From assembly GCA_033065855.1 (NCBI GenBank), contig JAVXUO010001107.1, positions 1-64,000 of the forward strand: a stretch of DNA of 64,000 bases, read 5' to 3'. The stretch is from Escallonia rubra. Lineage: Eukaryota > Streptophyta > Magnoliopsida > Escalloniales > Escalloniaceae. A program made the translations under genes and the position numbers. Shown piece after piece: positions 54,894 to 61,568 of this stretch (positions are counted from its first letter, which is position 1; each line of letters opens with the position of its first letter). The notes under the pieces were generated by a model. It made no database searches and was not told where the DNA came from. It saw only the letters and a program-made list of their open reading frames with translations.

Positions 54894-57800
54894 TCAGCGA
54901 GCCACAAGCACGGACTCCGTTAGACGATTTACCGAACACAATTCTGCTTGCTCTCTACCCGAGGCAGCAAGCAAGGGGGCTCTCCCAGCAGTAAAAGCAG
55001 GTCGTTTTGGTGAAACTAATGTCGTGTGTTCATTGCTAAGCATCGCAACAACTTCAGACATAGAAGGTCTATCTGATGGAACTTCTTGAACGCACAAGAG
55101 CCCGACAGCAACGTATTTCAGTGGCATACATGAGGAAGACGGGATATCTAAAGTCGGATCGATCAGCTCAAGAACCCTGTCGTTTACCCATAACTCCCAC
55201 GCCTGCGAGGTCAAAGAGAATATGTGCTTACACTTGATACAATCGGGTGCACAATAAGAAATAAGAGTGACTAAAGGTTTGAATAACGGTTCATGAAAAT
55301 CAGCAGGAACTCACATATCCAAGAAGACTTTGATAGTCCAAGTCATGGAAGCCAGTACTCTTTTTCCCGCTCACAATCTCTAGTAGCAGAACCCCGAAAG
55401 CAAACACGTCCGACTTTATCGAGAAAAGTCCTTCCATAGCATACTCAGGGGACATATAGCCACTGCATTTTCTCACAAGAAGGATTTATTAGCTAGAAAA
55501 CGAATTGCAATGTCTAAGACAATATCCTGGTATATTCGTGTGTGGTTTAAGTAATGAATAATTGAAGGTTCATCTCACTCACTAAGTCCCCACTATCCGA
55601 TTTGTATTTGCTTCCAACTGATTTCCGCCAAAGATTCTTGCCAGGCCAAAATCGGAAATTTTGGGGTTCATCTCAGCATCCAACAAGATGTTACTGGCCT
55701 TCAGATCTCTATGCACTATTCGTAGCCTAGAGTACTGATGGAGATAAAGAAGTCCCTGGGCAATTCCTTCAATAATGCCAACACGCGTTCTCCAATCCAA
55801 TAGCTTTTGCTTCATAGGATCTAACACATGCGGATCAACGTTAGAGTATAGAATCTCATGCAGGAATAGGCAATCAAACAAACAATAGGGTGATCACTAC
55901 CAAAGAGAAAAGAATCCAAGCTTTTGTTAGGCATGTACTCGTAAATTAATATCTTTTCATCTTCTTCAATGCAGCCTCCCAAGAGCCTAACAAGATTCAT
56001 ATGTTGGAGTTTGGCAATTAGAATTGTTTCATTTCTCAGTTCCTCCAATCCCTGTCCGGACCCTTTTGAAAGCCGTTTCACAGCTACTGACTGCCCATTC
56101 AATAAGTTACCCTGAAATTTCATGAATCAGAATACATTTGTGACCTGTTAATGTGGACTGTTGTTTGAATAGGAAACCTTATTATCTTGATGGGTAATAC
56201 CTTGTAAACAGGCCCAAAACCACCCTCTCCTAGCTTATTAGCAGCAGAGAAGTTGTCAGTAGCAGCACATATGCTTGAAAAAGTGAACATTGGCAAATCA
56301 ACCACCTTGTTTTCTCCTTCGCCCGTGTTTCCTACGCGAACACTAGCGGTGTGCACTTTGCTAGTATCCAGATTAAGTAACAACAAGTTCTGATTTGTTT
56401 CCTTAGCTTCTGCTAGTGTAGAAGTGCAGAGATTAGTCACTCAAGAAGTATGTTGCTTTTGAGTAAGATTAGTAAAAGGTATCCAAGGGTCGCATCAAGT
56501 AAAAATGAATGAGAATTCAATCAATATATTACCTTTGTGGCTGAGCTTTCTTATCCAGAGGTAACACGAGAGAGAACCACATATGAGAAGGGGAATGGAT
56601 ACTGCCAGACCAATGTATAAGCGTCTTTTCTTTCCCGAATCACCTGGAAAAAACCGAGTCTTAGTAATGGAAGTCTGGGCATCATACATCCTCACTAGGA
56701 ATAACAAAGACTAAGTATTGCTACCTTTACTAGGAATAGGTAGCTCAAAAGAATTAAGTTTAAGGTAGAAATCTTGTCCAAATGTAGCAGGTAGCTTCGT
56801 TCCGATCAGATCTCCAGTCCATAATCTACAATCCCCATTAAAAACATAAGCATTGCATGAGCAGTTGATTAGGCATGCATATTCACATAATTCAGCCACC
56901 CGGACTGCTGATGATTGTGGATTTTGAGGCAACCCCACTTGCCTTATCTTCAGAAATCCTTCTTTGTCCTTGTTACATTGCAGAGGGTTCCTTCTCGAAC
57001 ACCCACCAGAAAAATTAAACAAGCCCCACTCTTTTGGCAAGCGCGGTTCAAAACCTGGCAAACAGCTGCAGATGGAAACGGCGGACTCGTTGCATAATGC
57101 ATACGCCCCACACGGATTAAGAGAACAACTTGATCGTGGTTCCGCCCAATACAAATTCCACTTCTGGTTACTCTCCAACCATGTCAACTGCCGAATCTGG
57201 CCCGAAGAATCCAAGACAAATCTAGATGTGATATTCGGGTTGTAAACATCGTAAGTGTAGTAATTGGATTTCTCATCCGAGACATAGGTGAAGTTGTAAA
57301 TATAGTTCAAATTCATTTCAGGAACAGAAGAGAAAGTCTCCCCATTCCAAGCTCCACTTTTCCAATGTATTTCTGAGCTATTCCTGATCCATATGAAAAA
57401 TTCCGCCCTGCCAGTTGGATCTATCCCATATGAAAACGTCCCTGAAGATGGATCATCGGAGCTTCTCCACGAAATGAGGACCTGTTGGAAATATAGCTTG
57501 GATTTGTTACGTTGACTTCACATAACAATTAATCATAAAAATATAACTAAAACTAATGGGAGCTGATCCATTGACAGCGCTGGCAAAATAGGACATTTTG
57601 CTAGCGCGATCTGGCCGTCCATCCTGAAAGATGGACCGCCCAGATCGCGCCTTTTTCGAATACTGTCAGTCGTCCGCGACACTATATCGCGGACGGACTT
57701 TTTTACCTTTTTGCCCCTCCGCCCCGTCCGCTAAACTGTGTCGCGGACAGACTTTTTTTTTAATTTTTTTTAAGCCCGTCCGCTACATAATGTAGCGGAC

Positions 57801-60800: not shown

Positions 60801-61568
60801 TCAAGCATATGTCTTGATGTTTGTGTTCTCCATGATAGAAGTGGTCTCCTTTTATAGTAGAAGAAGACTAGGGGTTACACACATAATAAATAGTAACGGT
60901 CAAAAGCATTATGAATAAGATTATGACAAGGTTTAATACAATAGGTTACATTAACTAGAATAAATAAAGAAAATAAATTAAGGTTTCAAAGCTTTAATAA
61001 AAGAATTTGTAAATAAAATAAAAGCAAATTCCAACAGTACCTGGCTTCGGTTTGTGGTTTTATCTAATCCAATCTTACCGCCAGGCAGAAAAGTGTCCGT
61101 TGGGTAATCAAAACTCTGCCATACAACGTTAAATTCATCGCTCAGAACAAGGTTTCCGGTGTCGAGAAGTACTACTGCGCCTTCAGAGGCATTCAAGAAC
61201 CGAAAAGTAGAATTTGTGGACCAGATTGGCCTTTTAAAACCATCGAAGAGGGTTAAGTTTCCATCTTCAGAGAGTACTAATTGGGAGAGAGAGTAAGAAC
61301 CGACAGAGATAGGCATATCTCTATTCGCTACCCAAACAATGGTCTGACCTGGGATGTTTTTGTACCATATGCCCATGTAAAATTGAACTGAATTTAGAGT
61401 AAAGAAACCCAGCTCAAACTTTCCTCCTCCAGAGATTATAGTCTGGCTTGCGTTGAGGGACTGGCCTAATGATATTCGATCCAATCCAGCGGAAAAGTTA
61501 ACTCCACAAAAGATGTAGAGAAGCATGAGGGATGTCTGCAACAACCATATTCTGCTGGCTACAAACAT
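54894..61568 (-). CDS. G-type lectin S-receptor-like kinase (second copy) with LTR-derived intron
   Basis: Plasma-membrane receptor kinase. Exons on the minus strand are 61568-61041, 57481-56725, 56643-56533, 56409-56201, 56111-55901, 55820-55583, 55462-55315 and 55202-54894. All introns are GT-AG and phases fit, giving 836 residues. It has a signal peptide, B-lectin domain, S-locus domain with EGF-like cysteines, PAN domain, membrane helix ([17 protein letters not shown]), and RD kinase with GEGGFG, Lys547, HRD Asp644 and DFG Asp662. The later exons have the same lengths as the first copy (209, 211, 238, 148 against 151, 309). The first intron is not family-typical: it is a solo LTR inserted between Gln176 and Val177, and splicing at the target duplication restores the frame exactly. 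If that splicing fails, the protein stops in the lectin domain. No other damage was seen. Confidence 0.85.
57558..57964 (+). repeat. left inverted arm of the foldback MULE
   Basis: Includes the perfect palindrome centred near 57796 (gtccgctacataatgtagcg and its completion) and a second one near 57843, plus shorter palindromic words such as gtccgcga ... tcgcggac. Confidence 0.88.
58446..58851 (-). repeat. right inverted arm of the foldback MULE
   Basis: Near-perfect reverse complement of 57558-57964, with only a few differences and small indels. Confidence 0.88.
58899..60011. mobile_element. TIR element, 1113 bp, flanked by AT runs
   Basis: Left end ggggaaatcgaatataaggc and right end, on the other strand, ggggaaagtgaatataaggc. 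The similarity extends about 50 bases through ctagcct(c/t)acgcaa. Both ends abut long (TA)n runs, so any target duplication is masked. The interior mixes AT-rich DNA with GCCGGC-rich coding-like patches. No transposase. The superfamily is uncertain; a MULE or similar non-autonomous element is possible. Confidence 0.65.
60012..60066. repeat. (TA)n microsatellite
   Basis: About 55 bases of uninterrupted TA repeats. A similar run at 58869-58898 lies on the other side of the neighbouring TIR element. Confidence 0.9.
60067..60587. mobile_element. two transposon fragments joined
   Basis: The left end (ggagaaagcgaatatgttgc, then ctagcctaaggctag and gactaaaactacgtagtttt) is a diverged copy of the start of the TIR element at 58899. 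The right end (ggtcaatggatcagttcc, about 60570-60587) is a diverged copy of the foldback MULE terminus. Neither has its partner, so these are truncated or rearranged pieces. The middle is again GCCGGCC-rich. Confidence 0.5.
60849..60858 (-). promoter_or_regulatory. TATA box of the solo LTR
   Basis: CTATAAAAGG on the minus strand, about 180 bases from the LTR start, the normal place for a U3 promoter. It points in the same direction as the kinase gene. Confidence 0.55.

Follow-up and report, generated by a model that had tools for sequence, protein, structure and literature searches.

Retrotransposon 412, lying in an exon of the Drosophila vermilion gene, was reportedly seen by Fridell et al. 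in 1990 to be spliced out with the use of splice sites inside the element. The locus described here is alike in that an element with long terminal repeats (LTRs) appears to be spliced from an exon; there it was a laboratory mutant allele in an animal, whereas here it would be an intron of a gene family. The window analysed is a stretch of 64,000 nucleotides from Escallonia rubra (positions 1 to 64,000 of contig JAVXUO010001107.1, assembly GCA_033065855.1), and it holds a G-type lectin receptor kinase gene (61568-54894, minus strand) whose first exon is split by an insert. We propose, with a probability of about 0.8, that a single copia insertion with duplication of GGTCC became an intron and was then spread by gene duplication. 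The case is carried by the insertion site, the empty site in a paralogue, the target duplication, the presence of the insert at the same base in five gene copies, the open frames and the constraint on the kinase. From these we infer that there was a single insertion, that the insert is spliced, and that the intron is used in living tissue; the insert most likely became a normal intron.

In Arabidopsis, cDNA showed that a full-length ONSEN (Ty1/copia) element inserted in an exon had been taken out like an intron (PMC12112155). Both cases concern a copia LTR element in a plant exon that is removed, or here probably removed, as a new intron. The ONSEN insertion was fresh, full-length, induced and seen in cDNA, was an exception among exonic insertions, and lay in a gene that is named in two ways (PMC12112155), whereas the element described here is a solo LTR of greater age, identified by comparison with an empty site and present in five gene copies, and its splicing is predicted. 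Transposon insertion at AGGT is an established source of introns, with a table of 35 events in Oryza, Drosophila, Oikopleura and Zea; in the accessible text of that review the words LTR and retrotransposon occur 0 times (PMC3443670). The likeness is that an exact intron, neutral in length, results from a target duplication in which AG and GT are present; the difference is that here the terminal A of the LTR would provide half of the acceptor, so that GGTNN suffices instead of AGGT. Introners obtain splice sites from their target duplications by several routes, and the splice sites of the present insert would likewise be partly recruited from one; introners, however, are families that seed many introns, most of them with DNA-transposon signatures (PMC9860276), whereas here one insertion of an ordinary copia family would have been spread by gene duplication. 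Small LTR elements are described as having changed gene structures in grasses (PMC3281118). A literature search, with most subscription papers beyond reach, found no solo LTR fixed as an intron for which both an empty site and several descendants that still code are known. Intron gain with a readable mechanism is seldom caught; one genome here holds the donor family, the target duplication, the empty site and descendants at different states of decay, so that a plant intron can be traced from its origin through its first stages, in a form testable with ordinary RNA reads.

The window gene (copy W, contig C1970) is compared below with copies a, b, c and d on contig C1971 and with the insert-free copy on C1968 (copy E). 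The insert in W lies between codons 176 and 177; on the minus strand it begins GTACTGTTGG and ends TTCCAACAG / TTTCCAACAG. Its coordinates and junctions are as originally predicted: removal of 61040-57482 (3,559 bp) restores Gln176-Val177, the joined frame reading ...NRSQ/VLIS... at the insertion point. The other lectin kinase in the window (7211-8542) aligns without a gap across these two residues, again as predicted. The spliced frame is free of internal stops and has 837 codons plus the stop, not the 836 codons counted before, and GT...AG is found at the six other introns. Pfam identified B_lectin (76-182 of the joined exon), S_locus_glycop and PAN_2 in exon 1; the kinase was assigned by motifs read from the translation. 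The features of W are the following.

61041-61568, minus strand: exon 1a, with the start codon and most of the B-lectin domain, ending ...AAGCCAG (codon 176); signal-peptide-like start by eye
57482-61040, minus strand: putative spliceosomal intron, 3,559 bp, GTAC...ACAG, at the same position in four paralogues
61037-61041, minus strand: upstream target-site copy GGTAC, with the donor G/GTAC inside; GGTCC in the truncated copy d
60591-61036, minus strand: 5' part of the solo copia LTR, beginning TGTTGGAATTTG, sense orientation, TATA box TATAAAAGG; about 89-90% identity to LTRs in L009-L013
57557-60590, no strand assigned: nested elements, which replaced about 150 bp of the LTR; boundaries approximate
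57483-57556, minus strand: 3' end of the solo LTR, ending ...TTTCCAACA; left boundary approximate
57478-57482, minus strand: downstream target-site copy GGTCC, whose first G completes the acceptor ACAG
61077-61078, minus strand: cryptic donor GCG/GTAAGATT, in W only, 38 nt upstream of the putative donor; its use would shift the frame
56725-57481, minus strand: exon 1b, beginning GTCCTC..., with the S-locus glycoprotein and PAN regions
56533-56643, minus strand: exon 2, transmembrane-like segment, topology by eye
56201-56412, minus strand: exon 3, from the gene model
55901-56111, minus strand: exon 4, kinase, VAVKRL
55583-55820, minus strand: exon 5, kinase, HRDLKASN and DFGLAR
55315-55462, minus strand: exon 6, kinase
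54894-55202, minus strand: exon 7, kinase C-lobe and stop codon

The insert in W belongs to a Ty1/copia family, of which it is a solo LTR enlarged by nested elements. The original prediction of a solo LTR holds for about 520 bp, with LTR ends of the TG...CA type (TGTTGG...CCAACA), but the remaining 3 kb or so consist of nested repeats, which took the place of part of the LTR. Its left part of about 446 bp has 89-90% identity to four LTRs of L009 and L010, and the last 70 bp have 77-79% identity to three of these four. L009 is a full-length relative in the same genome with two 679-bp LTRs that are 99.7% alike, while L010 carries, in three pieces, Retrotran_gag_2, gag_pre-integrs with Pol_BBD, and the copia-type RVT_2, the order of the domains lying outside this test. 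Flanking 5-bp duplications were seen by eye around both family members (GTATC around L009, ATGAC around L010). The inserts of copies a, b and c fall short of the 679 bp of a single LTR and can be aligned to it, so no internal region is left in them. The nested repeats have many copies in the genome: an inverted-repeat element at 57557-58852, with two arms of about 408 bp that are 99% alike, has many relatives in both orientations, and 58869-60092 holds another repeat, roughly 1.2 kb long. The AT content is 69-74% in the four C1971 inserts (a-d), and 56% in the W insert with its nested elements.

These features suggest the following course of events. A Ty1/copia element would have inserted once, on the coding strand, at CCA/GGTCC of a long first exon, duplicating GGTCC, and would survive as a solo LTR. 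The acceptor AG would then consist of the terminal A of the LTR and the leading G of the downstream target copy, and the donor GT would come from the upstream copy. Since the reading frame is recovered once the element and one target copy are taken out, the insert could behave as a spliceosomal intron. The gene, intron included, would then have been duplicated, with at least four of the copies staying full-length and coding, while the insert itself would decay freely through deletions and nested insertions.

Searches of the plant's own genome gave nine matches for exon 1a and seven for the rest of exon 1; six copies stood out and were compared (6 of the 9 and 6 of the 7 matches, the others being weak). 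The original prediction had asked for a copy without the LTR, and the C1968 paralogue has the exact empty site: it reads AGCCAGGTCCTC uninterrupted, with no gap and GGTCC once. In W and the four C1971 copies the insert lies at the same base. Its length is 548 bp in a, 605 bp in b, 953 bp in d and 369 bp in c by the gene model (371 by search gap), and all five inserts have GT...AG at the ends and can be removed without change of length. The downstream target copy is GGTCC in all five carriers; the upstream copy is GGTCC in d alone, W, a and c having GGTAC there and b GGTTC. An original GGTCC duplication, as first claimed, is therefore backed by the empty site and by copy d with GGTCC on both sides, though the two copies in W itself now differ. 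Copies W, a, b and c have all eight coding pieces, no internal stop, GT...AG at seven introns and readable kinase motifs, and copy d (L032, C1971:42470-44082) keeps only exon 1a and 45 codons of exon 1b within the 7.5 kb fetched. Two side observations concern these copies. The insert of d holds a nested fragment which by eye resembles part of the nested inverted-repeat element of W, and in the C1968 copy (L035, C1968:160438-160441) the acceptor before exon 2 is CCTG as against CCAG in W, a, b and c, so splicing there may be altered.

Over the coding sequence (CDS), synonymous divergence is 0.18-0.20 between the C1968 copy and the carriers and 0.04-0.10 among the carriers. The inserts, for which W was reduced to its LTR parts in the alignments, differ by 0.09-0.16 substitutions per site and by many insertions and deletions (indels), as free sequence does. 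An internal LTR deletion is common to a-d and not visible in W by eye. States at the 3' end are common to the five inserts and unseen in the LTRs of L009-L013, but similar states occur in the family member L050 and they add little. The simplest history would be one insertion after the split from the C1968 copy and before the splits among the carriers. Independent insertion into each paralogue is unnecessary, given the same base, the same orientation and the same target duplication. An assembly artefact or haplotype split is ruled out as the cause because four of the carriers lie apart on one contig, C1971. No retrocopy with a spliced junction was found among the six strong exon 1a and the six best exon 1b matches; the C1968 copy, the sole insert-free one among these matches, is no retrocopy, as it keeps the other introns.

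Donor sites were scored by ViennaRNA duplex energies (kcal/mol) against the U1 5' end. The presumed newborn donor CAG/GTCCTG and that of copy d score -5.6, and those of the intact copies are predicted to pair better: -7.1 in W and a, -6.9 in b and -6.4 in c. The six other donors of W range from -5.2 to -6.6, so that its insert donor scores better than all six, and in copy a none of the 29 GT sites of the insert is better than -5.1. The ancestral C at +3 is gone from every intact copy and kept in the truncated copy d. As an improvement of the donor this change is suggestive only, since it concerns five copies with possible shared ancestry. Were the insert kept in the transcript, each of the five copies would meet a stop after 9-20 codons. 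The insert might end translation early and give a soluble lectin-only protein, for the frame from the start codon has 196 amino acids and retains the B-lectin match; as this leaves both the kinase constraint and the downstream in-frame indels unexplained, we regard it as extremely improbable.

Selection after the insertion was examined by codon models fitted to W, a, b and c only, under three topologies, every branch being later than the insertion. The p-values of the ratio of nonsynonymous to synonymous rates (omega, dN/dS) in six regions are uncorrected for multiple testing. The truncated copy d was left out of the codon and indel tests and of the stop simulations for exon 1b and the kinase, and the C1968 copy was left out of the post-insertion tests by design. 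Purifying selection after the insertion is clear in the kinase only, with omega 0.28-0.31 (p against 1: 1.6e-5 to 7.5e-5). Kinase changes unique to W are 5 synonymous and 1 nonsynonymous. In exon 1, 7 of 7 indels are multiples of three, whereas this holds for 5 of 22 indels in the inserts (Fisher p 0.0005; W again reduced to its LTR parts), and four stop-free copies of exon 1b were obtained in a fraction of 0.00175 of 4,000 neutral simulation runs. The host gene remains coding after the insertion, as seen from the open frames in four of five carriers, the kinase omega and the in-frame exon-1 indels. Conserved GT...AG, in-frame exon-1 indels and a constrained kinase are to be expected of a spliced intron but not of a null allele. 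The reading of the LTR as a new intron is thereby supported: five paralogues share the insert at one and the same position, the exons of four of these are open, and splicing is deduced from sequence. The expectation of dN/dS below 1 in the exons held for the kinase; exon 1a is borderline, omega is above 1 in exon 1b, and the whole CDS does not differ from 1.

The high value in exon 1b, omega 1.50-1.74 (p 0.019-0.076), deserves separate mention. The S-locus-glycoprotein/PAN half of exon 1 (L031, L033, L034 and window 56725-57481) has dN/dS above 1 at borderline significance while the kinase is constrained. With many replacements and no breakage, exon 1b resembles what diversifying selection on a receptor ectodomain might produce. 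For exons 2-3 omega is 1.4-1.65 (p 0.25-0.42).

The same contrast between domains bears on another explanation, by which the LTR serves as promoter of an N-truncated receptor kinase and only the downstream exons are needed. The LTR is in the sense orientation, TATAAAAGG is kept in W and b, and constraint is evident in the kinase but not clearly in exon 1. Yet the TATA-box region is deleted in a and c, where exon 1b and the kinase are nevertheless open; all that c retains is a TATAAA at another place in the LTR, near position 30. Moreover, exon 1a is open in all five carriers, with borderline constraint, and the product would be without a signal peptide. We therefore hold this explanation to be improbable.

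A number of observations weigh against a single insertion that became a cleanly spliced intron of living genes. ONSEN insertions in exons most often gave chimeric and not clean transcripts (PMC12112155). The U1 score fails to single out the donor in W, because other GT sites of W score better than its -7.1: 2 of 61 in exon 1 and 4 of 173 in the insert. The donors are poor at +4 to +6, the score of copy b depends on interrupted pairing, and copy c is without A at -2 (CGG/GTAC). A substitution found only in W, at a site that reads GGGAAGCTT in a, b, c and E, creates the cryptic donor GCG/GTAAGATT, whose predicted U1 duplex is -8.2 as against -7.1 for the putative donor, and the nested elements of W hold the strong GT sites GAG/GTAAGATG (-9.6) and CAG/GTTAGTGC (-9.3). 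The insert may accordingly be spliced in a, b and c while W is mis-spliced at GCG/GTAAGATT or at the nested sites and has recently lost its function, which would be compatible with the proposed origin for the family. The size of the W insert, 3.56 kb as against 0.37-0.6 kb in a, b and c, points the same way. However, all exons of W are open, the kinase changes unique to it are mostly synonymous as given above, its putative donor pairs well too, and a GT match is no proof of use. W is the least certain of the four intact copies to splice cleanly, but we consider its mis-splicing unlikely, though the likeliest of the alternatives.

The other adverse observations concern the coding sequence. Omega is borderline in exon 1a (0.56-0.62, p 0.036-0.077, by topology) and does not differ from 1 in exon 1 as a whole (1.04-1.16, p 0.41-0.84) or in the whole CDS (0.81-0.89, p 0.12-0.38). 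The absence of stops is weak evidence in exon 1a and the kinase: chance left them stop-free in 0.10 of the runs for four copies of exon 1a, 0.06 for five copies including d, and 0.23 for the kinase. Changes unique to copy a in the kinase are 7 synonymous and 10 nonsynonymous, and those unique to copy b in exon 1 are 0 synonymous and 18 nonsynonymous. Trees of different regions conflict, gene conversion among the copies is likely, and it may blur the rates. With copy d already truncated and exon-1 omega about 1, the intron-bearing copies could be dying or dead, their frames kept open by gene conversion or chance. Against this stand the kinase omega of about 0.3, the in-frame exon-1 indels and the four exon 1b copies without a stop, and the sole close insert-free copy found, that on C1968, lies 0.18-0.20 synonymous changes per site away. 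The death of these copies thus seems to us quite unlikely, and the origin of a functional intron from one copia insertion is preferred.

By reasoning, an element with TG...CA ends and a 5-bp duplication gives a length-neutral GT...AG intron at GGTNN, AGGTN, NAGGT or NNAGG, in either orientation. The present case is GGTNN, where the last A of the element and the first G of the target form AG. Such 5-mers make up 3.0-3.5% of the sequences counted (75 of 2,510 in the window kinase, 89 of 2,516 in the C1968 kinase, 127 of 4,061 in an NLR-like frame of the window), so the geometry alone is uncommon yet not astonishing; the strong part is an insert common to five paralogues, four with open frames. 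Any plant genome can be searched for sites that follow this rule, in the GGTNN form or one of its three sister forms. Further introns derived from this LTR family were sought by exact-pattern genome searches for LTR starts after GGTNN or AGG, which gave 3 and 4 matches (3 and 3 in reversed-pattern controls); besides the window site, none of the six loci carried a family LTR, diverged or reverse-oriented cases being outside the search. It is possible, though doubtful, that LTR elements, with TG...CA whichever way they insert, give rise to plant introns generally and have been overlooked in this role, and that this cluster displays the later steps, in which a weak newborn donor abandoned C at +3 in the intact copies and retained it in the truncated one.

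Two further observations were made in the window. Near the lectin kinases, an open frame of 1,354 amino acids at 47689-51753 is, by reading, NLR disease-resistance-like; and at 12259-16727 there are two long open frames that read as copia-like, one gag-like (451 amino acids) and one integrase/reverse transcriptase-like (957 amino acids).

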